DNA of 64,000 nt from Natronomonas gomsonensis (GCF_024300825.1 NZ_CP101323.1:3472001-3536000); one strand, 5' to 3'. Counted from the stretch's first letter, positions 1,557 to 52,384 are shown. Numbers and translations: made by a program. Notes: a model not told the origin generated them from the sequence alone.

Positions 1557-2501
1557 ATGTCCTCCAGAACTGCCGCTGAACCGGCGTTCGACGCGGTCGA
1601 CACTCGGAAGGTGGGGGCGTTCCTCGCGCTCGCTTTCGGCATTTCCTGGACGAGTGCGGGCGCTCTCTACGTTGCCGGTGTCGAACTGCAAACCATTGCC
1701 GGGACCGTCCTCGTCGTCGCCCTGTTCATGTGGGCGCCTGCAATCGCCGCGATACTCGTTCAGTACCGCGCCGGCGGATCGATTCGTGACGGCTGTGGTC
1801 TGCGTCTCGGCCGACCTCGGTGGCTGGCCGTTGGCTGGCTCGCCCCCCTCGCTCTCGTCGCCGCGACCATCGGCGTGGGCGCGCTGCTGCCCGGCGTGTC
1901 GGTGACGACCGACTACGCGGCATTTCTCCTTGACCTCGGCCTTCCACAGGCGCAAGTCGAGGAAGCCATCGCCCAACTCGAAGCGTTCCCGGGGCCGCCC
2001 GCACTGTTGTTCGCCGTCCAGGGACTCGGTGCCGGGCTGACGATTAACGCTCTCGCCGCGCTGGGTGAGGAACTCGGATGGCGCGGTCTGTTGCTCGAGG
2101 AACTGTCGCCGCTCGGGTTCTGGAAGGTCTCGGTGCTTACAGGTGCCGTTTGGGGACTCTGGCACGCACCAATCATCCTGCAGGGCCACAACTTTCCGGA
2201 GGCACCGATTGTCGGCGTCTTCGTGATGACCGTCGCGACGGTGGCTGTCTCGCCGGTGTACACCTACCTCACGGTTCGTGCGGAGTCGGTGCTGGCCGCG
2301 GCGTTCTTCCACGGGTCGTTCAACGGGCTCGGGGCGCTCTCGGTGGTGTATCTCGCCGGCGCTGGGAATCTCGTGACGGCCCCGGTGGGAATCGCTGGCA
2401 TCGGCGCCGCCTTGCTCGCCACGGGCGCGTGCGTCGCTCACGACCGCATCGTCGCCGCTGAGGCGGTCACAGGTGGGGAGCCGTTGCGGCCGTTTTTGTG
2501 A
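1557..2501 (+). CDS. CPBP-family intramembrane metalloprotease
   Basis: A 314-residue polytopic protein. The three diagnostic motifs of the CPBP (Abi/CAAX-processing) family are present in order: GEELGWRG with the EE pair, WGLWHAP with the first His, and FFHGSFNG with the second His/Asn. Together they form the metal-dependent active site inside the membrane. Members cleave prenylated or signal-type membrane peptides or act in self-immunity; the substrate here is unknown. The ATG at 1557 is preferred over one at 1530 because the domain starts just after it and 1530 sits directly behind the upstream stop. Confidence 0.9.
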   Translation: MSSRTAAEPAFDAVDTRKVGAFLALAFGISWTSAGALYVAGVELQTIAGTVLVVALFMWAPAIAAILVQYRAGGSIRDGCGLRLGRPRWLAVGWLAPLALVAATIGVGALLPGVSVTTDYAAFLLDLGLPQAQVEEAIAQLEAFPGPPALLFAVQGLGAGLTINALAALGEELGWRGLLLEELSPLGFWKVSVLTGAVWGLWHAPIILQGHNFPEAPIVGVFVMTVATVAVSPVYTYLTVRAESVLAAAFFHGSFNGLGALSVVYLAGAGNLVTAPVGIAGIGAALLATGACVAHDRIVAAEAVTGGEPLRPFL

Positions 2502-2565
2502 TTTTCACGAACACGAAAGCGGGCGAAACGGGGCGGTTTTGTATCGCGAGTACAATCTCTATTCG

Positions 2566-2940
2566 ATGAGCAGTATCCGCCCGAACGAGTTGGCCGACCG
2601 CCTCGACTCCGACACGGATTCCGACCCGTTCCTCCTCGACATCCGCCCGGAACGCTCGTTCCAGTCCGGCGCCATCGAGAACAGTCACAACGTCGCCGTC
2701 TACGACGACCTACGCGGGGGCGACGACGCCACGCTCCGGCGGCACCTCCACGACATCCCGAGCGACCGCGATGTGGTGGTCATCTGTAAGATGGGCGTCG
2801 TCGCGAAACGCGCCACCAGCCTGCTCAACGAGGAAGGATACGATGCGGTGACGTTGCGCGGTGGGATGAGCGGCTGGCGGGGCTACCAGAACGGGTCGTT
2901 GAGTTACAAACTCCGGTCGTTGCTCTGGCGGCTCACTTGA
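2566..2940 (+). CDS. Rhodanese-like domain protein
   Basis: A 124-residue single-domain protein. An N-terminal LLDIRPERSF stretch and the loop VVVICKMGVVAKRA carry the rhodanese fold signature; the Cys of CKMG is the expected sulfur-carrying catalytic residue. GGMSGWRG near the C-terminus matches the family end motif. Such proteins transfer sulfane sulfur in the cytoplasm (thiosulfate or persulfide chemistry, sometimes tRNA thiolation or cofactor synthesis). Its stop codon ends one base before a tnpB element, so its native downstream neighbourhood has probably been displaced. Confidence 0.88.
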   Translation: MSSIRPNELADRLDSDTDSDPFLLDIRPERSFQSGAIENSHNVAVYDDLRGGDDATLRRHLHDIPSDRDVVVICKMGVVAKRATSLLNEEGYDAVTLRGGMSGWRGYQNGSLSYKLRSLLWRLT

Positions 2941-4325
<1,385 letters not shown>

Positions 4326-33315: not shown

Positions 33316-33472
33316 GACGGGCTATGACTCCCGTTGGTGTGCTTTGCGGGCGAAGAAACGCACCACCTCGACGACCACACGCTTGGGGAAAGCCGACCAT
33401 GACAGCGTCACGGATCCGTGGCTGCCCGCTATGTCAGACACGGGAAAACGCTGTCAGAGCCAGCCCCCGAGT

Positions 33473-33547
33473 GCTCCCGAGGGGAATCGAACCCCTGGCC
33501 TCCAGTGTGAAAAACTGGTGTCTCTCGCCAACGGAGACTCCGGGAGC
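33473..33547 (-). tRNA. tRNA-Glu (TTC)
   Basis: 75 nt. Acceptor GCTCCCG/CGGGAGC; anticodon arm CCAGT-TTTTCAC-ACTGG with anticodon TTC; T arm AGGGG-TTCGATT-CCCCT. The D arm (GTCTCCGTTGGCGAGAGAC) is almost the same as that of the Gln tRNA at 34938-35010, so the two may share an origin. All stems pair, so function in translation is possible. Confidence 0.85.
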
Positions 33548-33594
33548 GCAGTAGGGACGAAATCAAGCGCTGAGGTGCGGCGGACACGCACGGA

Positions 33595-33999
33595 TTATTG
33601 CAAGCGCTCGAAGCCCTCGAGTTGCCCGTGCGTGAACGTTACTTGATACGTGACGAGTGTATCGAGGTCCTTGAAGGAGTGTGTGAGCTTGAAGCGGCCG
33701 TGGTAGTCGTCTCGTTCGATCCAGTCGTCGTGGACTCGGTTCAGACTGCCGGCCATGTAGCGGAAATCGTCCTCGTCGACGTCGTCACGGCTCGCGTATG
33801 GCCGGTCTTCCGGCGGGACCGCTTCGGTGTGCCACTCCTCTTCGAGGAGCCGACCGTCCGTCGTAATCCGAAATGTGGTCATGCTTGGCCGTTCGATGCC
33901 TTTCGTCTGCCAGTCGACGTCCTCGGCCGGCGTAATCCCTTCGGGGTACTCCGGTAGGTGGACGTCGTCGTAGAGTTCGACTGTATCGAATAGTCCCAT
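33595..33999 (-). CDS. Protein of unknown function embedded in the tRNA array
   Basis: A 134-residue protein starting MGLFDTVELYDDVHLPEYPEGI. The pattern VDWQTKGIERPSMTTFRITTDGRLLEEEWHTEAVPPEDRP and HGRFKLTHSFKDLDTLVTYQVTFTHGQLEGFERL is regular and acidic, clearly coding. ATG 33999 is preferred over one 29 codons upstream, whose residues come from the tRNA-Met region. It lies between two tRNA genes on the same strand. It has no recognised domain; it could be an RNA-binding or accessory protein of the locus. Confidence 0.78.
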   Translation of the reverse strand: MGLFDTVELYDDVHLPEYPEGITPAEDVDWQTKGIERPSMTTFRITTDGRLLEEEWHTEAVPPEDRPYASRDDVDEDDFRYMAGSLNRVHDDWIERDDYHGRFKLTHSFKDLDTLVTYQVTFTHGQLEGFERLQ

Positions 34000-34012
34000 A
34001 TTTGTCCTCCAT

Positions 34013-34082
34013 TGCGGGACCAGGAGTCGAACCTGGACCTCGGGGATATGAGCCCCGTGGACTGCCATTACCCTATCCCGCA
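34013..34082 (-). tRNA. tRNA with CAT anticodon (Met, or Ile if modified)
   Basis: 70 nt, a little short. Acceptor TGCGGGA/TCCCGCA; anticodon arm CGGGG-CTCATAT-CCCCG with anticodon CAT; T arm CCAGG-TTCGACT-CCTGG. It does not begin with the AGCGGG typical of archaeal initiator tRNA. It could be elongator Met or the Ile tRNA with modified C34; the sequence alone does not decide. No intron, although elongator Met genes of haloarchaea often have one. Confidence 0.82.
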
Positions 34083-34186
34083 GCACACAATTCGGAACTC
34101 ACTCATGGGTATCTCTCAGTTCTCCACAGCTGTCCGTCCCTCAGTCTCGTCGGTTGGAAGTGAGAGGTCTCGGACTGTTGGAGAAT

Positions 34187-34258
34187 GCTCCAGCCCGGAT
34201 TCGAACCGGGGGCTCGGCCGTGAGAGGGCCGTGAGTTTGGCCGCTACTCCACTGGAGC
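34187..34258 (-). tRNA. tRNA-Glu (CTC)
   Basis: 72 nt. Acceptor GCTCCAG/CTGGAGC; anticodon arm CGGCC-CTCTCAC-GGCCG with anticodon CTC; T arm CCCGG-TTCGAAT-CCGGG. Second Glu tRNA of the array, with a different D arm (TGGAGTAGCGGCCAAACTCA) from the TTC one, so it is not a recent copy of it. Confidence 0.87.
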
Positions 34259-34306
34259 GGGGTGGCCTCGTCTGGAACGGGTCATCGGCCAGTGGATGGA
34301 TGGCGG

Positions 34307-34447
34307 TCACCTCGTTCCGTGGAAGTACGCGCCGTCGCCGGTGACGCAGATTCTCACACTTCCAATCGTGTCGATGGACGTTGTTTCGCCGAGCGGGACG
34401 TGGCGGAACGCTTCCTCCTCGCAGTCAGGGCAGACATTCTTTGGCAT
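34307..34447 (-). CDS. 46-residue protein between tRNA-Ser and tRNA-Glu
   Basis: MPKNVCPDCEEEAFRHVPLGETTSIDTIGSVRICVTGDGAYFHGTR. A CxxC pair and a further Cys are visible, and the codons look genuine. The ATG at 34447 begins three bases after the tRNA-Ser gene end on the same strand. It could be a small zinc-knuckle protein. Only size and position support it; the open frame continues upstream through tRNA-Ser and tRNA-Pro, which argues that longer versions are artefacts. Confidence 0.5.
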   Translation of the reverse strand: MPKNVCPDCEEEAFRHVPLGETTSIDTIGSVRICVTGDGAYFHGTR

Positions 34448-34450
34448 CAC

Positions 34451-34532
34451 GCCGTGTCCCGGAGTCGAACCGGGAACCCGTCGTCGGGGCTGGCATAGCA
34501 GGCCAGTGGGGTCTCCATTCCCCAGACACGGC
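34451..34532 (-). tRNA. tRNA-Ser (GCT)
   Basis: 82 nt class II tRNA. Acceptor GCCGTGT/ACACGGC; anticodon arm CTGGC-CTGCTAT-GCCAG (anticodon GCT); long variable region CCCCGACGACGGGTT; T arm CCCGG-TTCGACT-CCGGG. The long variable arm and anticodon agree on serine. The gene is separated by five bases from tRNA-Pro, so the two are surely cut from one transcript. Confidence 0.88.
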
Positions 34533-34537
34533 ACACT

Positions 34538-34609
34538 GAGCCGACAAGGGTTCGAACCTCGGTCCTGTGCGCCCGATGCACAGATCGTCGTCCGCTGGAC
34601 CATCGGCTC
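34538..34609 (-). tRNA. tRNA-Pro (CGG)
   Basis: 72 nt. Acceptor GAGCCGA/TCGGCTC; anticodon arm TGTGC-ATCGGGC-GCACA, anticodon CGG; T arm CGAGG-TTCGAAC-CCTTG with one G-T wobble. The D arm is short (GTCCAGCGGAC). It lies five bases upstream of tRNA-Ser. Confidence 0.86.
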
Positions 34610-34859
34610 ACGGGACTGCCGAGCGTTCGGCAGTTGATTATCTATCTGTACGACTTTCCAACTGCGCAACCGCGACCTCTCGGTCGTTATTGCGCGTCTC
34701 TACGCGGGGGCGTGCTTCGGGATCTCCCGGGAATACCACACCGGCTCATATAGGTTGCAGACCCTGCTGGGCCCAGCATCGTCGGAACGATCCAACTGAT
34801 CGCACCAACGAGCTGCCTACCTCGATGGGTATCCCCACGTGGCCACGCCACGCGTCCAC
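34610..34859. other. Spacer of the tRNA array with a weak tRNA-like fold
   Basis: No conventional gene. On the minus strand there is a run (TGCTGGGCCCAGCA palindrome at about 34767-34780) flanked by stretches that vaguely resemble a D arm, but no TTCGA-type T loop. CCTATATGAG near 34745-34755 on that strand could be a promoter for tRNA-Pro and the genes after it. Confidence 0.35.
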
Positions 34860-34932
34860 GCCGACGCCGGGATTCGAACCCGGATCACGGCCGTGACAGG
34901 ACCGTATGCTCGCCGGATTACACCACGTCGGC
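34860..34932 (-). tRNA. tRNA-Asp (GTC)
   Basis: 73 nt. Acceptor GCCGACG/CGTCGGC; anticodon arm CGGTC-CTGTCAC-GGCCG with anticodon GTC; T arm CCGGG-TTCGAAT-CCCGG. Five bases separate it from tRNA-Gln upstream, suggesting a joint precursor. Confidence 0.9.
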
Positions 34933-34937
34933 ATGTC

Positions 34938-35010
34938 GCCCCGGCCGGAATCGAACCGGCGACCTCCGGATTCAAAGTCCGGCGTCCCTCGCCAGCGGAG
35001 ACTCCGGGGC
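34938..35010 (-). tRNA. tRNA-Gln (TTG)
   Basis: 73 nt. Acceptor GCCCCGG/CCGGGGC; anticodon arm CCGGA-CTTTGAA-TCCGG (anticodon TTG); T arm GCCGG-TTCGATT-CCGGC. The D arm (GTCTCCGCTGGCGAGGGAC) closely matches that of tRNA-Glu(TTC) in the same array. This is the first tRNA in transcription order. Confidence 0.87.
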
Positions 35011-35242
35011 TCGACGTAGCCGCAGCTCTCGCTGCGGGTGATGTGTGCTAGCGACTCCTCGTACGCTCAGCGCGTACGGAATCGCTCGTTCGTCCCACTG
35101 TCAGGAACGAACGCAGACCAAACTGCCACGAGCTTCAGTCGCCGTACTCGCGTGACGCTGTGAGCTAAGCGAGTCCTAGGCGAAAGCAGGCGGCACTCCC
35201 GTGTTCCCCAGCCCCTGACGGGTAGTCCGCGTGGGAGCCGGG

Positions 35243-38766: not shown

Positions 38767-40011
38767 CTACTCACTCGCCGCTAACGCGGCTCGTTCCTTG
38801 AGGGTAGGGCTTCCTGCTTCCATGACGCGCTTTGCAGACACCGAATCGGTGTCCGTAGGGAGCGCAGTCTCCACAGGCGTTTTTTCGGAGTGTCCCACTC
38901 CTACATCTTGTAGACCGCGAGAAAGGATATTGTATGCCGCGTTCGCGTCTCTGTCCGCCTCGAACCCGCAAGCTGGACAGGAGTGTTCACGGACCCACAA
39001 CGGCTTGTCGGTCGAAACGCCGCACGACGCGCACTCTTTGGTTGTCCCTCTCGGGTTGACCGCGACGAAGTGCGTTCCCTCCCGCTCGCACTTGTATTCG
39101 AGCAACGAGAGAAACGTTCGCCACGCGGCAGACGCCGTGTTGCGACTGTTCGACGGACTTTCCATCATCCCCTTCACGTTCAGGTCTTCGACCGCCACGA
39201 GGTCGTACTCCCGAGCGTAGTACGCCGAGAGCTTGTGCAAGAAGTCGCGGCGCTTCCGACGGAGGTCGGCGTGACACTCCGCAACGCGCCGTCGTTGCTT
39301 CTCGTAGTTGTTCGACCCGTGTTGCTTGCGCGAGAGTTCCCGTTGCTCGCGCTCCAAGCGTTCACGCTCGTCTGAGAGGTTGAGCGACCCGACCGCCGTG
39401 CCGTCGGTGTCGTGGGCGTACGTGAGAATCCCAACGTCGATACCGACGCACTTCTCGGGGTTCTCAGGCGTTTCAGGCGGTTCGCGGTCCATTTGGACGC
39501 CGAAGGTGGCGAACCACTCGCCCGTCGGTTCCTTCTTGATCGTGACCTGCTTGAGTGTGGCGTCGTCGGGGATGGCGCGGTGAAGCCGAATCGGTATGTC
39601 CGCGAGTTTCGAGAGTGATAGGACAGTCTGACCGCCCTTCTTGTCGAGCTTGAAGCCAGACTGACTGTACGTGAAACTGCGGAACTCCCGTGGCGGCTTC
39701 CATTTGAGCTGGCCGACACCGTAGCCGTTCTCCTTGAGCTTGGAAAGTCCGTTGAGGTTGTCGAACAGCCGTTCCACGACGGTTTGGAGAACTTTCGAGT
39801 ACACGTCGGACAGGCCATCCCACCACACCTTGAGGTCAGGTAGCTCCGACCGCAAGGCGGTCATGGACGGCAATTCACCGTGTTCGTCTTGGTACTCGTT
39901 GAGGCGGTAGAGCGTGTGGTTGTACAGTTGCCTACAAATGTTCCGGTGGCGGTCCAACTCCTCGCGGTGGGCGTCGGACGGCTTGAGTCGGTACTTGTAG
40001 GCGTAGTACAT
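38767..40011 (-). CDS. tnpB: TnpB of the IS605 element
   Basis: A 414-residue protein, a different TnpB subfamily from the other two in the window. It begins YYAYKYRLKPSDAHREELDRH. RuvC motif I is CVGIDVGILTYA, motif II LVAVEDLNVKGMM, and the last motif is DRDANAAYNILSRG. The zinc finger is CASCGVSTDKPLWVREHSCPACG. The catalytic acids are intact. Its final codons run into the right-end hairpin, as expected for a guide-RNA-producing end. Confidence 0.92.
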   Translation of the reverse strand: MYYAYKYRLKPSDAHREELDRHRNICRQLYNHTLYRLNEYQDEHGELPSMTALRSELPDLKVWWDGLSDVYSKVLQTVVERLFDNLNGLSKLKENGYGVGQLKWKPPREFRSFTYSQSGFKLDKKGGQTVLSLSKLADIPIRLHRAIPDDATLKQVTIKKEPTGEWFATFGVQMDREPPETPENPEKCVGIDVGILTYAHDTDGTAVGSLNLSDERERLEREQRELSRKQHGSNNYEKQRRRVAECHADLRRKRRDFLHKLSAYYAREYDLVAVEDLNVKGMMESPSNSRNTASAAWRTFLSLLEYKCEREGTHFVAVNPRGTTKECASCGVSTDKPLWVREHSCPACGFEADRDANAAYNILSRGLQDVGVGHSEKTPVETALPTDTDSVSAKRVMEAGSPTLKERAALAASE

Positions 40012-46020: not shown

Positions 46021-46186
46021 GGAACGTTCTCGGGCTTCAGCCGGTCGGCCTGGTGGGCAGCAGTCAGATATGACTGGGTCGTCGGAGTGGGTACTGTTTG
46101 CGATCCCACTCTCTCAATCTCAAGTGCGAAGTCGCGCCAGAACGGACGGCCAAACACTCAAGAATCATGTAATCCAATATTTATCT

Positions 46187-46432
46187 ATGGCCACCATCGA
46201 AATTGACGATGAGGTGTATGACGCATTGCGAATTCCTGAAGGAGAGCGATCGAAGGCGATGAAGCAGGAGTTAGCAGTGTCACTCTACGCACGCGATATT
46301 CTCTCGTTCGGCAAAGCCCGAGCGTTAGCCGAGATGTCTAAACGCGAGTTCCATACGCTCCTCGGCGAACGAGAAATCCCTCGACACTACACCGAAGCTG
46401 AACTTGCTGAAGACTTCGAATATGCCCAGTAG
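46187..46432 (+). CDS. UPF0175-family antitoxin
   Basis: An 81-residue protein. ATIEIDDEVYDALRIPEGERSKAMKQELAVSLYARDILSFGKARALAEMSKREFHTLLGEREIPRHYTEAELAEDFEYAQ follows the UPF0175 pattern throughout (the KARALAEMSKREFHTLL core is diagnostic). ATG 46187 is used because the domain starts there. It overlaps the PIN toxin gene by 11 bases, so the two are translated together. Confidence 0.85.
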   Translation: MATIEIDDEVYDALRIPEGERSKAMKQELAVSLYARDILSFGKARALAEMSKREFHTLLGEREIPRHYTEAELAEDFEYAQ

Positions 46433-46898
46433 TGATCTTGTGGTCTCGGATACATCACCGCTCTTGAATCTCGCGCTCATCGATCAACTCGACCTTCTCA
46501 AAGCTCAATTTAGCGGTATTTCGATTCCGGACCAGGTTTGGGGTGAACTCACTGAAGGAGATGCTGGGTTGAACGCTATCCGTGAACTGCGAGAAGAGGG
46601 GTTCCTAAACGTGGTTGAGGTGGAGCGCTCGGACCTGTTCATCGAAATACGTCGGCAATTGGATCGTGGTGAAACAGCCGCGATTTGTTACGCGATTGGG
46701 CAGGATGCCGAACTCATCCTCTTAGATGAGAAAGAAGGCCGACGCGTCGCTCGCGATCATGACTTGACTGTCACGGGAGTAATCGGTGTATTTCTCAAGG
46801 GAGCTAACGCCGGCAACGTGGACTTAGAGCGAGAGCTTGCCGCCCTCCGTGAAGCAGGTTTCTGGATTTCTGATGCGCTCTATTCGCAGGTCCTATAG
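46422..46898 (+). CDS. PIN-domain toxin, DUF3368
   Basis: A 158-residue protein. LVVSDTSPLLNLALIDQL has the first Asp; IPDQVWGELTEGD the conserved Glu; LDRGETAAICYAIGQDAELILLDEKEGRRVA the later acidic residues. All four expected acidic positions are filled, so it may be an active nuclease. The partner antitoxin is the UPF0175 gene immediately in front, and the pair is intact, unlike the vapBC remnant 200 bases upstream. Confidence 0.85.
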   Translation: MPSSDLVVSDTSPLLNLALIDQLDLLKAQFSGISIPDQVWGELTEGDAGLNAIRELREEGFLNVVEVERSDLFIEIRRQLDRGETAAICYAIGQDAELILLDEKEGRRVARDHDLTVTGVIGVFLKGANAGNVDLERELAALREAGFWISDALYSQVL

Positions 46899-47746: not shown

Positions 47747-48811
47747 ATGAGTTCTAAGGGAATTATCGAACTTGAAGATTCGGTCGAACAGAATGCAACT
47801 GAAAGCGACGATGCGGTCGTCGTCGACGTGCGTGGTGCGGAGTGGCAGTCGACGTGTCCGGAGTGTGACGGCCGGGTGCGGAAGCGGGGTCACGAGTCGA
47901 TGTGTGCGGACTGTGGATTGGTCGTGCGCGTCGAGACGCTGGATCGGACGCCGACGCTGAAAGACCATGCACCGACGGCGGACGATCGAAGCGGTGAGTG
48001 GGCGTGTGAGCCAACGAATCAGCTCCGGGTCGATAAGGGCCTCGTGACGACGTTCTTCCTCTCGACGGACGGAAAGGGCAACACGTTATCGCCGGAGCGG
48101 AAGGACAAGATGGAGCGACTGCGGCGGCGGCACAAGCGCTTCACGATGCACGACCGGCGTGACCAACGGCTGAACGAGGGGATGCGCGATATCGGGATGC
48201 TCGGTGCCAACCTCGGGCTGCCGGAGCACGTCCAGACCGAAGCCGGCTGGTACCTGAAGGCAGCCAAGCGTGAGCGATTGCCCGCTGGCCGGATGCCCTG
48301 GGAGGCGCTGGCGGCGGGGGCCGTGCAGTTAGCAGCCCGCAAGGCCGGCATCGAGCGCGACCCTGTGGATGTCGCCCAGTACGCGAAGGCGTCGCTGGAT
48401 CGAGTGTGTGCCGGCGCGCGGAAGATTCGCATCGAGACGGATGTGGATGCCCCACCGGTGCGTGACCGGGCGGTCGATCGGGTCGTCGCAGCGCTCGATG
48501 ATGTCCTCGATGTCGAGGCGGCGATCGAGCTGGTGCGAGTCGGTGAGCGGTTGTTGGCCGTGGCTGATAGCGAGGGCATTGGGCCGGGCACGCATCGGAT
48601 GGCGATGGCCGGTGCGGCCGTGTATGCGGCCGATCGGCTGACGAGCGAGAAACATCTGACCCAAGCCGAGGTGGTCGAGGCGGCGTCGGCGGTCGTGCCC
48701 ACGTCGACGAGCCAGATTCGGAGCTACTCGCGAGAAGTCCACGACATCGGGCAGGCGCGGTTCCAGTCGCTGTCGAATGACACGCTACCGGGGCTGGTGC
48801 AGGCCGACTGA
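47747..48811 (+). CDS. tfb: Transcription initiation factor IIB paralogue
   Basis: A 354-residue protein. Zinc ribbon at about residues 34-58: CPECDGRVRKRGHESMCADCG. The B-finger/linker segment carries KGNTLSPERKDKMERLRRRHKR. Two cyclin folds follow, at about 120-215 and 225-330 (AAGAVQLAARKAGIERDPVDVAQYAKASLDRVC; AGAAVYAADRLTSEKHLTQAEVVEAASAVVPTSTSQIRSYSREV), the second with a typical recognition helix. Haloarchaea have many TFBs with specialised promoters; a TFB carried next to an origin may direct genes of the replicon. Confidence 0.88.
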   Translation: MSSKGIIELEDSVEQNATESDDAVVVDVRGAEWQSTCPECDGRVRKRGHESMCADCGLVVRVETLDRTPTLKDHAPTADDRSGEWACEPTNQLRVDKGLVTTFFLSTDGKGNTLSPERKDKMERLRRRHKRFTMHDRRDQRLNEGMRDIGMLGANLGLPEHVQTEAGWYLKAAKRERLPAGRMPWEALAAGAVQLAARKAGIERDPVDVAQYAKASLDRVCAGARKIRIETDVDAPPVRDRAVDRVVAALDDVLDVEAAIELVRVGERLLAVADSEGIGPGTHRMAMAGAAVYAADRLTSEKHLTQAEVVEAASAVVPTSTSQIRSYSREVHDIGQARFQSLSNDTLPGLVQAD

Positions 48812-49401: not shown

Positions 49402-49860
49402 AGAGACACTCCAGTGTTTCAACTGAAGCTGCCCCAGTGTAGTGGTGTGGCTCTGGTACGTGGACTTTCACGAGGCATTCCATATCCGGTGGTGCCTGAT
49501 GGGGAGTATAAGCAGAGACACCCCACGCTTTCAAGTGAAGCTGACTTGTGGAGAGGCCGTTGGGAAAGCCAGGGGCCGAGTATGAGGATTGACGGATTCG
49601 ATCGTCTCTTGGGCCATCGCTTCTGAGAACACACGACATAGTGGGGTGTTTCCCGATTTCGAATACTCCCAATTCGTGGTAGGCATCGCAATATACCATC
49701 GCTTCACTCGAAATGGTGGGGTGTCTTGGGACTGCAACAACTGAGTACACCAACGATATTACTACGACCACCCCACCGCTACAAGTGAAGTATTTATTGC
49801 GATTTCCGCTTACTAAGCAGAGGGTATTGGTTGGAACACCCCACCATTTCGAGTGAAACT
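49402..49860. repeat. ORB-like repeat cluster, upstream side (six copies)
   Basis: Six copies of a 22-26-base repeat (CACCCCAC, then about five variable bases, then TTTC-AGTGAA): 49404-49429, 49515-49541, 49766-49791 and 49835-49860 in one direction, 49628-49651 and 49702-49727 in the other. The run of G on one strand next to a TTCACT-GAAA part fits archaeal origin recognition boxes. No gene lies inside the cluster. AT-rich DNA at 49788-49830 between two copies could be the unwinding element. Confidence 0.72.
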
Positions 49861-49901
49861 TTGAGAAGAATTTTTGAGCAGAACAGCTGTACAGAGCCCG
49901 T

Positions 49902-50430
49902 TTATAGGAGACCGTTCATTGATGCAATCTCTCGAATTGTCTGGATTTCAGCCTCCAGATGGAGAACGTCGGACATCGCATCGACGGCGCTGGTAAATGG
50001 AACGTTGAGTTCGTAGCTGTAGTAGTTCCCACGAGAACCAATCCGATTCTCCTAGGCCGAGAGAATCCCGAGCATTCGGAGCTCGGAGAGGTGATTGTGC
50101 ACCGAGCGTTGGGTTAGTGAATCGGATTCAGCGGACTCACACAGCGAGACGTACTCCTCGTAACACTCGCGAGTTCGAGCCGGTGTTTCCTCCTTCGCCG
50201 CTTTCGACACGACGGCCAACAGTGCGAGCTGCCCGTGGGTCGTGAGTTGCCGCATTCCCTCTTCGACGCGCTCCTGTTCTAATTTCGCTCGTGCAGCCTC
50301 GACGTGGTCTCGCTCGATTGTATCGAGGTTCCGATTTTCAGCCAGCTCTCCCGCGAGTCGAAGTAGATCAAGTGCCTGTCGAGCACTCCCACTATAGAAT
50401 AAGTGTATATCCCGTACAAGCCTCCGATCT
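49902..50430 (-). pseudogene. orc1/cdc6 remnant with an internal stop
   Basis: Reading the minus strand: ARQALDLLRLAGELAENRNLDTIERDHVEAARAKLE...MRQLTTHGQLALLAVV...RSVHNHLSELRMLGILSA, then a TAG at 50052-50054, then GSRGNYYSYELNVPFTSAV... to a stop at 49902. This is the end of the AAA+ lid and the C-terminal winged helix of Orc1/Cdc6. The N-terminal two-thirds with the P-loop are missing (frame fades near 50430). So it is a truncated, nonsense-mutated second orc1. Confidence 0.78.
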
Positions 50431-50529
50431 CTCTCTCAAGGGGTGTATGGTGGAACTGGCCTTTGAGGAGTGTCTCTGTTCTCCTGGATGACGATACTCG
50501 ACGACGTCGGCCGGCTTGCAGGGTCGGTA

Positions 50530-50668
50530 AGGGAGAGTACGTTTCGTGTGCTTTTGCAGAGCGATAGCCGCGGGAGCATCACAGAGAGAGTGGATTTCTT
50601 GTGCTTGCCACGCTGGTTGTGATGACGCGATTGGCTCGGAGTGAGAGAGGACGTTTCGTGTGCTTTCC
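50530..50668 (+). repeat. Second origin repeat family, upstream pair
   Basis: Two copies of GAGAG-ACGTTTCGTGTGCTTT in the same direction at 50530-50555 and 50640-50668. The matching pair in the opposite direction lies just after orc1 at 51990-52011 and 52045-52075. The four copies face each other around the orc1 gene. Different from the ORB-like family. Confidence 0.7.
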
Positions 50669-50757
50669 TATGTGTCCTTCACAAAATGAGGGCGACGTAA
50701 CCGATATTTCTGGCTTCAATCGATTTCAACAGTAGCATACGAAACAAACAACGCTTG

Positions 50758-50793
50758 GCTTTATATATCTATGTCGAATTGGATACGGTATCC
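50758..50793 (+). promoter_or_regulatory. orc1 promoter
   Basis: GCTTTATATATC at 50758-50769 is a good archaeal TATA box about 27 bases before ATG 50794. This supports leaderless transcription and a start at 50794 instead of the earlier in-frame ATG 50755, which lies upstream of the box. Confidence 0.7.
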
Positions 50794-51990
50794 ATGGGTG
50801 GCCCGTTCGACGATCTCACTGAGACGGTATTTGCGGACAAGGCGGTTCTCACAGAAAGCTACCAACCGGAGACGATTCTCGAACGAGACGAAGAGATCAA
50901 GGCGTACAGCCACGCACTTCAGGACGTGCTGTTCGGCCGGGAGCCAGAGAACATCTTCGTGTACGGGAAGGCCGGACTCGGGAAGACGGCAGTCACGAAG
51001 TACATGATGGACGAGCTTCGCGAAGAGGTAACGACGCGAGAGGCGGCAGACGACCTCCACATCCATACGATCAACTGTAACGGCCGGACGCTGTTCATGG
51101 TCGTTCGTGGCCTCGTCAACGAACTGCTCCCCGAGCATGCCAGTCGCTTCCCGAAGCGAGGGCTCGGGACTGGGGACGCCTTCGACGAGTTGTACCGACA
51201 GTTCGACCGTTTGGGGGGGACACATCTCGTTGTCTTCGACGAAATCGATCATCTGGAGGAGGCGAACACGCTATTGTACGAACTGCCTCGTGCGCGAGCG
51301 AACGGTCACGTCTTGGACGCGAAGGTCGGTGTGGTCGGGATCAGTAACGACTACACCTTTCGGCGAACGCTCTCGCCGAAGGTCAAAGATACGCTGATGG
51401 AGACCGAAATCTCCTTTAGCCCGTACGATGCCCAAGAGTTGCGGGAGATCTTAGAGCATCGCGCGGAACGAGCCTTCGTGGAGGGGGCCTGTGACACGTC
51501 GGCGATTGCAAAGGCGGCCGCGCTGGCCGCACAGGACATGGGAAATGCCCGGCAGGCGCTCGATTTACTCCGCGTCGGTGCGGAGTTAGCCGAACAAAAC
51601 GGTGAGACGCTGGTCACGGACGACCATATTGAGGCTGCACGGGAACGGGTACAGCGCGGTCGGTTAGAGAACAAAATTCGCGACCAGACCGAGCACGCCC
51701 AGTACATTCTGGAAGCGATTGCGAACCTCCAGACCAGCGGTGCGGTCCCGGCCCGCTCGAAAGAGATTCAACGAACGTACGAGCAGGTCGCTGACTCTCA
51801 TGCCGCCACACCGCTATCGACCCTGAAAAGCATCCAAGACCACCTCTCGGATCTCCACATGCTGGGATTTCTCCACCGACATGAGCAGAACAAAGGGCTG
51901 AGTGGTGGCCAGTACTACGAATACGAGTTGGATCTCGACCCGGGAATCGTGTTAGAGACCCGGACGGAGATCGCCGAACACACGGGATGA
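50794..51990 (+). CDS. orc1: Orc1/Cdc6 family replication initiator
   Basis: A 398-residue protein. Walker A is VYGKAGLGKTAVT at about residues 54-66, Walker B LVVFDEIDHL, sensor I VGISNDYTF, and sensor II region MGNARQALDLLRVGAEL. The C-terminal winged helix ends with STLKSIQDHLSDLHMLGFLHRHEQNKGLSGGQYYEYEL. It would bind ORB repeats and load the MCM helicase. The start follows from the TATA box (see promoter). It is surrounded by two repeat families and two orc1 remnants, as expected for its own origin. Confidence 0.92.
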   Translation: MGGPFDDLTETVFADKAVLTESYQPETILERDEEIKAYSHALQDVLFGREPENIFVYGKAGLGKTAVTKYMMDELREEVTTREAADDLHIHTINCNGRTLFMVVRGLVNELLPEHASRFPKRGLGTGDAFDELYRQFDRLGGTHLVVFDEIDHLEEANTLLYELPRARANGHVLDAKVGVVGISNDYTFRRTLSPKVKDTLMETEISFSPYDAQELREILEHRAERAFVEGACDTSAIAKAAALAAQDMGNARQALDLLRVGAELAEQNGETLVTDDHIEAARERVQRGRLENKIRDQTEHAQYILEAIANLQTSGAVPARSKEIQRTYEQVADSHAATPLSTLKSIQDHLSDLHMLGFLHRHEQNKGLSGGQYYEYELDLDPGIVLETRTEIAEHTG

Positions 51991-52077
51991 AAGCACACGA
52001 AATGTACTCTCCGTGAGTTCGTTTGGGTCCGGGGAGTGTGAGCGGAAAAGCACACGAAACGTACTCTCTCACTCCGG
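51990..52077 (-). repeat. Second origin repeat family, downstream pair
   Basis: AAAGCACACGAAATGTACTC at 51990-52009 (overlapping the last base of the orc1 stop) and AAAAGCACACGAAACGTACT at 52047-52066, with flanking matches. These are the reverse complement of the repeats at 50530 and 50640. Confidence 0.7.
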
Positions 52078-52181
52078 TCAAATCTCTCGACTACTGGGCG
52101 CGTAACGAGGGGCGTGCTAGTGGGCAGTATTCCGAGTATGAACTCAAGGTCGACTTGATGACAATGTGTGGTTGCTGGTGA
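52078..52181 (+). pseudogene. Tail of another orc1 gene
   Basis: The frame reads VKSLDYWARNEGRASGQYSEYELKVDLM and stops at 52179-52181. NEGRASGQYSEYEL matches the end of the intact Orc1 (NKGLSGGQYYEYEL). Only this C-terminal tail remains, immediately after a repeat, so a recombination between repeats probably replaced or duplicated orc1. Confidence 0.65.
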
Positions 52182-52241
52182 TTTTGAGGGGATTTCGCTT
52201 CCCGATACTGTGGCTCGGCACACCTGAGTTGGAACTTGGCA

Positions 52242-52384
52242 GAACACTCAACATGGTGGGGTGTGGCTGGTGGTTTGGTGGATAGCATTTGACAGAGTGG
52301 GGTGATTCGGAATATTTCTATGTAGTCAGCCATGGAAGGGTATCTTCAGACGGGAGAACACTCGACACGGTGGGGTGTCTCTGG
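52242..52384. repeat. ORB-like repeats, downstream side (three copies)
   Basis: Copies at 52242-52266, 52289-52306 (partial) and 52354-52384, all with the G run on the right (GGTGGGGTGT), i.e. the orientation facing back toward orc1. They match the six copies at 49402-49860. AT-rich sequence at 52308-52325 and 52400-52425 lies next to them. Confidence 0.68.

Follow-up and report, generated by a model that had tools for sequence, protein, structure and literature searches.

The locus analysed here raises the question of which of the repeats around an intact orc1/cdc6 gene serve its product as recognition boxes. The window, that is, the whole stretch of 64,000 nucleotides analysed (C1:3472001–3536000), belongs to a genome of two contigs that has nine Cdc6_C loci. 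An earlier note had proposed that a replication origin with nine G-run ORB-like repeats surrounds orc1. The gene between the repeat groups (50794–51990, plus strand) is indeed intact, as that note had stated: it encodes 398 amino acids with an AAA+ domain, a lid, and a C-terminal winged helix, and scored 407 bits against TIGR02928 (cut-off, 181). The locus thereby has the intact orc/cdc6, with AAA+ and winged-helix domains, of an orc/cdc6-adjacent origin. Window Orc1 does not belong to the family of oriC1, the universal archaeal origin; it is 30% identical to L011/L001, which we take to be the oriC1-type orc of this genome, and falls in a separate clade. The nearest named genome by window Orc1 is Natronomonas gomsonensis (L018, 98% identity), and the phage records searched for Orc1 relatives gave distant ones only (best identity, 27%).

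All nine G-run ORBs are present, six on the left and three on the right of orc1. The left group consists of 49406–49427 (minus strand, degenerate, GGAGTGT), 49518–49539 (minus, TTCACTTGAAAGCGTGGGGTGT), 49628–49649 (plus, AACAC-CGACA type), 49703–49724 (plus, TTCACTCGAAATGGTGGGGTGT), 49768–49789 (minus, TTCACTTGTAGCGGTGGGGTGG), and 49836–49857 (minus), the last being a perfect inverted partner of 49703–49724. The right group, entirely on the plus strand, consists of 52243–52264 (AACACTCAACATGGTGGGGTGT), ~52286–52307, and 52357–52378 (AACACTCGACACGGTGGGGTGT). Two of the nine, 49406–49427 and ~52286–52307, are weak. Six sites in the window match CACTCGAAATGGTGGGGTGT with three or fewer mismatches, compared with none in 100 dinucleotide shuffles, and these six are the only such sites in the 3.65 Mb genome. 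The earlier note could not assign this family to the chromosomal type, and the repeats are indeed not of the chromosomal oriC1 type.

Matches to the G-run ORBs were found beside Orc1s of other families, which are 43–46% identical to window Orc1, and the ORB sequence is not conserved at the flanks of window Orc1's own relatives. Boxes of the right-hand type (AACACTCGACACGGTGGGGTGT) flank a different Orc1 family (L042, L058, and L113). A second orc, truncated and with a TAG in frame, had escaped the earlier note; it lies on the minus strand at 50055–50420 (wider span, 49989–50420). It retains a C-terminal part, mostly 73–83% identical to intact plasmid and chromosomal Orc1s, and the stop codon stands just beyond this part. 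The boxes of these intact Orc1s are TTCACTTGCAACAGTGGTGTGT. Because the left cluster (TTCACTtGAAA..GTGGGGTGT) is close to these boxes but not identical, the truncated orc can be regarded only as the probable former partner of that cluster. A remnant-family orc in genome G064 is preceded by eight exact 29-bp tandem repeats (L089, 282–504). In regards to the other orcs of the window genome, the flanks examined carried different repeats, or none resolved by the repeat finder. The orc on the second contig (C2, L017) has long-G-string boxes, TACAACTCGAAAACGGGGGG, on both sides.

A second repeat family, M2 (GAGAGTACGTTTCGTGTGCTTT), likewise absent from the earlier description, directly brackets orc1. 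Three upstream copies are on the plus strand, at 50533–50554 (exact), 50586–50607 (weak), and 50645–50666 (one mismatch), and two downstream copies are on the minus strand, at 51990–52011, which takes in the final base of the orc1 stop codon, and at 52047–52068 (exact). M2 thus forms orc-specific inverted repeats in the adjacent intergenic regions. The halophile-specific G-string is absent from M2, which has the tail TACTCTC; the G-run ORBs carry a G-string but without linkage to window Orc1. Four M2 copies have one mismatch or none, against 0 expected by shuffling, and these are the sole sites of that strength in the whole genome.

The M2 copy at 50645 marks the upstream edge of an AT-rich stretch (50668–50793; 60% AT compared with 43% for the window), which is a candidate unwinding region and candidate promoter of orc1. 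A TATA-like box (TTTATATATC) was located at 50760–50769 on the plus strand. An ACGAAACa-ACGAA element is conserved just upstream of this box in the aligned clade; the window version, AGCATACGAAACAAACAAC (50734–50752, minus strand), consists of inverted M2-like half-sites ~8 bases upstream of the TATA-like box, within the AT-rich stretch. The promoter element points the opposite way to the upstream M2 boxes and can therefore serve as an inner origin box, an operator, or both. Across the AT-rich stretch, the main part of the clade has this half-site element as the inverted counterpart instead of a full box; full inverted boxes at that place were found only in the sub-branches with L081, L082, and L084.

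We compared the flanks of Orc1 relatives at 32 loci from named genomes, together with plasmid and whole-genome relatives, using a simple de novo repeat finder. Orc1s with at least 56% identity to window Orc1 were nearly all flanked by M2-type boxes, plus upstream and minus downstream where an array exists. The exceptions were a G-string sub-branch and a small number of loci with another repeat at the top of the finder's ranking. Orc1s with 52% identity or less had other repeats, most of them with G-rich tails (CACTTGCAACAGTGGTGTGT, CACTCGACAtGGTGGGGTGT, ACGACGGAAACGTGGGGTGG, and TTTCACCGGAAACGCGGTGT). The 54 scored Orc1 relatives (56–98% identity) have 288 M2-type sites with the tail G-T-A-C-T-C-T-C, and GGGG was found on the GAAA strand of none of the 288. 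GAAA is on the minus strand in 158 of the 170 upstream sites, and 111 of the 118 downstream sites are inverted; up to 11 inverted boxes follow the gene in L083. M2 occurs beside Orc1 relatives in many genera, on chromosomes and plasmids alike. Of the five M2-bearing plasmids examined, every one has at least one other orc besides that of the M2 clade. An M2-clade orc of Halobellus salinus is directly preceded by nine consecutive GTGGGGTG ORBs that belong to another family (L020, 4071–4407; the same locus as L154).

The Orc1 clade is present in 59 of 293 haloarchaeal genomes and in 26 of the 78 genera sampled. The M2 pattern was found in 56 of the 59 genomes with a clade orc, compared with 44 of the 234 without one (Fisher p ~1e-28, uncorrected for the kinship of genomes), and the reversed-pattern control was near zero. 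Eight M2 sites were retrieved from genomes in which no clade orc had been scored. One was accompanied by a frameshifted copy, one by a 91%-identical remnant, and one by an Orc1 of another family; the remaining four arrays and one single site had no clade orc in the fetched stretch. The four arrays, of 3–7 copies, are L200 1849–2279, L202 2274–2955, L203 1904–2459, and L206 1341–1464, and no Orc1-like frame was found in the 3–5.5 kb fetched around them. These orphan arrays may be either remnants or sites used in trans. In L204, an M2 array (1532–1639) lies upstream of an other-family Orc1 (2142–3260, 44% identity), so that the mosaic seen in the window is reversed.

On the GAAA strand, M2 reads AGCACACGAAAC-GTACTCTC and the canonical box TTCACTCGAAAT-GGTGGGGTGT; one half is common and the tails differ. 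A sister sub-branch (L055, L180, L185, and L193–L198; 58–62% identity) combines the common half-site with a real G-string (AACAGACGAAAT-GAGGGGTG), and its boxes occupy the same places. In these members, GGGG was present in 43 of 45 sites at 8 loci, and the G-string of L055 was located in the repeat CACCCCTCATTTCGTCTGTT. Because of this sister sub-branch, M2 is, judged by its sequence, an origin recognition box with the ordinary half-site CACACGAAAC in which the G-string is replaced by TACTCTC. A maximum-likelihood tree gave two changes of tail type, and the no-G group of 56 rows received support of 100/98. A few members have a purine tract on the other strand (GAGGGG in L080, a divergent member on plasmid pHME132 of Haloferax mediterranei, and GGGTAG in L083).

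The comparison of the window with N. gomsonensis bears on which repeats are maintained. The M2 sites differ at 3 of 88 bases, compared with 43 of 227 in the spacers (p 0.0003). The remaining left ORBs differ at 10 of 88, compared with 73 of 337 in the spacers (p 0.03). N. gomsonensis retains all M2 sites; two left ORBs and the orc remnant are deleted, and the right-hand ORBs were not found in this genome. By these differences and deletions, M2 is clearly under constraint and the G-run ORBs less so. Homology between the two genomes ends ~16 bases past the last M2 copy, and on the left it extends beyond M2. In three left ORBs of N. gomsonensis (L018, 4301, 4413, and 4577), GTGGAGTG stands in place of GTGGGGTG; the change looks concerted and unlike random decay.

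In the protein, residue 122 follows the tail type. Beside the Gly-Leu of the initiator-specific motif (ISM), threonine occupies this position in all nine G-string members, and arginine or lysine in all 61 no-G members. Window Orc1 is a member of the M2 clade, with R122 beside the ISM and L344 at the start of the recognition helix. Threonine is also found at this position in Aeropyrum pernix Orc1 and Sulfolobus solfataricus Orc1-1, whose DNA-bound structures were aligned, and in 43 of 53 Orc1 rows outside the no-G clade (the 53 include one G-string member). Nine Orc1s outside the clade also have arginine or lysine at 122, and those with a resolved box mostly have short GGTGT tails. The ISM residues mutated in Orc1-2 were G127-L128, and in A. 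pernix Orc1 the motif is stated to touch the G-tract (PMC9738581); sequence recognition has been credited to the ISM (PMC5538431). Gly123-Leu124 of window Orc1 would be the equivalents of G127-L128. Since there were only one or two evolutionary switches, the coincidence of the tail swap with the change from threonine to arginine or lysine beside the ISM is a lead and not proof. Furthermore, the whole clade, with both tail types, has one extra residue (L344) in the first turn of the predicted recognition helix (344–356). The structure of window Orc1, predicted from an alignment from which plasmid-record rows were left out, had a mean pLDDT of 90, and its closest folds were 2QBY and 2V1U.

A TFB gene with a single recognised TFIIB repeat lies upstream of orc1 (47747–48811), and a TFB gene likewise precedes the M2-type orc of Halorussus (L081). 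Farther away are a UPF0175 and DUF3368 pair that resembles a toxin-antitoxin module (46070–46898), an IS605 OrfB/TnpB-like gene with OrfB_IS605 and Cas12f1-like_TNB domains (38767–40011), and a cluster of seven tRNA genes on the minus strand (33471–35011). A low-GC stretch extends from ~3475000 of C1 to the contig end and on into 1–60000; it carries surface polysaccharide genes and has mostly 51–60% GC (39% at 3530001–3535000), compared with ~65%. The cumulative GC skew over ~220 kb around the locus peaks near 3.525–3.530 Mb, inside this low-GC polysaccharide island, and the oriC1-region control gave no signal.

Four other readings of the locus were weighed. The nine G-run ORBs could be the recognition boxes of orc1 and jointly its active origin, as in the earlier note: they lie on both sides of the gene, they are specific to this locus in the window genome, and described haloarchaeal origins are marked by G-strings (PMC3528665, PMC3936714). 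The relatives of orc1, however, keep M2 at their flanks instead, the G-run ORBs match the families beside other Orc1s, and the nearest relative has lost ORBs and kept every M2 site. We consider this assignment quite improbable; of the earlier proposal, an origin-type locus around orc1 stands, and the nine repeats as its boxes do not. Two live systems, with orc1 acting on M2 and the G-run ORBs used by an Orc in trans as a second origin or a sink, form a possible though doubtful alternative. The slower change of the remaining left ORBs relative to their spacers and the apparently concerted GTGGAGTG copies fit this alternative, as do the other-family ORB arrays that adjoin an M2 orc in Halobellus and Halorubrum coriense and the report of two ORB types beside one orc (Wu 2012, PMC3528665). 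Against it, the probable partner gene is truncated and contains a stop, the G-run ORB sequence was absent from the examined flanks of other orcs in the window genome, and an ORB at 3 mismatches was found at no other orc of the genome.

M2 might also consist of operators only, with Orc1 regulating the transcription of its own or other genes and not acting as an initiator. Such a role is known for Orc1-2 of Sulfolobus islandicus, a non-initiator regulator (PMC9738581), and would suit the half-site element conserved just upstream of the TATA-like box. The long downstream array of L083, the G-string ORBs at the same places in sister members, and the confinement of strong M2 sites to this locus in the window genome argue against operators alone, and we regard this reading as unlikely. 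Finally, the inverted M2 copies that close in on the gene, and the end of homology shortly after the last of them, could be taken as the ends of a mobile cassette carrying orc1. This is very improbable: M2 copy number and spacing vary between loci, the arrays are tandem, homology on the left continues past M2, and there is no transposase between the repeats.

The locus is most likely a live M2-orc1 origin, its replication activity being predicted, beside older and partly decayed origin material. We have good though not full confidence in an initiator-origin pair in which an Orc1 from a distinct clade has M2 boxes of its own, with the G-run ORBs as remains of earlier origins. This pair may have spread horizontally. 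Orc1 would bind at the M2 boxes upstream and at the inverted half-site element beside its own promoter, the AT-rich stretch between them would open, and MCM would be loaded. Binding at the promoter element could let Orc1 repress its own gene. The downstream inverted boxes would bind more Orc1 and restrain firing by titration, like the ORB-rich sequence that follows Haloarcula hispanica cdc6E. The nine G-run ORBs would be leftovers of one or two earlier origins that belonged to other Orc1 families, of which one truncated orc persists.

With somewhat less confidence, we favour the broader proposal that a widespread Orc1 clade fires from origins in which the boxes of most members have lost the supposedly universal and essential G-string of haloarchaea, and that the TACTCTC swap, together with the threonine-to-arginine/lysine change at the ISM, is a natural recoding of origin recognition. 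If true, such recoding was excluded by design from published origin searches. G-strings have been described in haloarchaeal origins and are essential at oriC1 of H. hispanica (PMC3936714). The published searches took only G-string repeats (PMC3528665, PMC4595724), and boxes of the M2 type would have been filtered out by this requirement. Wu 2012 gave G-string ORBs to 102 of 154 orcs and left 52, about one third, without an origin (PMC3528665); the M2 type may account for some of the orcs left in this way. We found no description of M2 in open-access papers, where sequence strings are rarely searchable; looking for the M2 sequences in their text gave two hits, both unrelated. Close sisters that share the half-site but differ in the presence of the G-string are matched pairs for the function of the G-string and the ISM. 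Moreover, the locus is a caution that a G-run repeat beside an orc gene need not be the binding site of that gene's product.

The M2 locus resembles the G-string ORB origins (oriC1, oriCa, oriCb, and others) in that an orc gene is accompanied by its own inverted-repeat family, the Orc family is linked to the ORB sequence, and the repeats are two-sided, as in some of those families; it differs from them in that the M2 boxes have no G-string (PMC3528665). H. hispanica oriC2-cdc6E, with the downstream ORB cluster oriC2D, likewise has boxes on both sides of the orc, but these are recorded as G-string ORBs (PMC3936714). Downstream titration is supported in oriC2D (PMC3936714) and would be expected by analogy at the window locus. 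Two ORB types beside a single intact orc were also reported in Halorubrum lacusprofundi and Haloquadratum (Wu 2012, Fig. 3); both types were recorded with G-strings there, whereas in the window one type is G-less and the other lies beside a truncated orc. In regards to the initiator, A. pernix ORC1 (2V1U) and S. solfataricus Orc1-1/Orc1-3 (2QBY) have the same fold, with TM-scores of 0.83 and 0.80 (query length), respectively, and a common ISM and winged-helix layout. Window Orc1 differs from both in the arginine/lysine that replaces threonine at the ISM and in having one residue more where the recognition helix begins.
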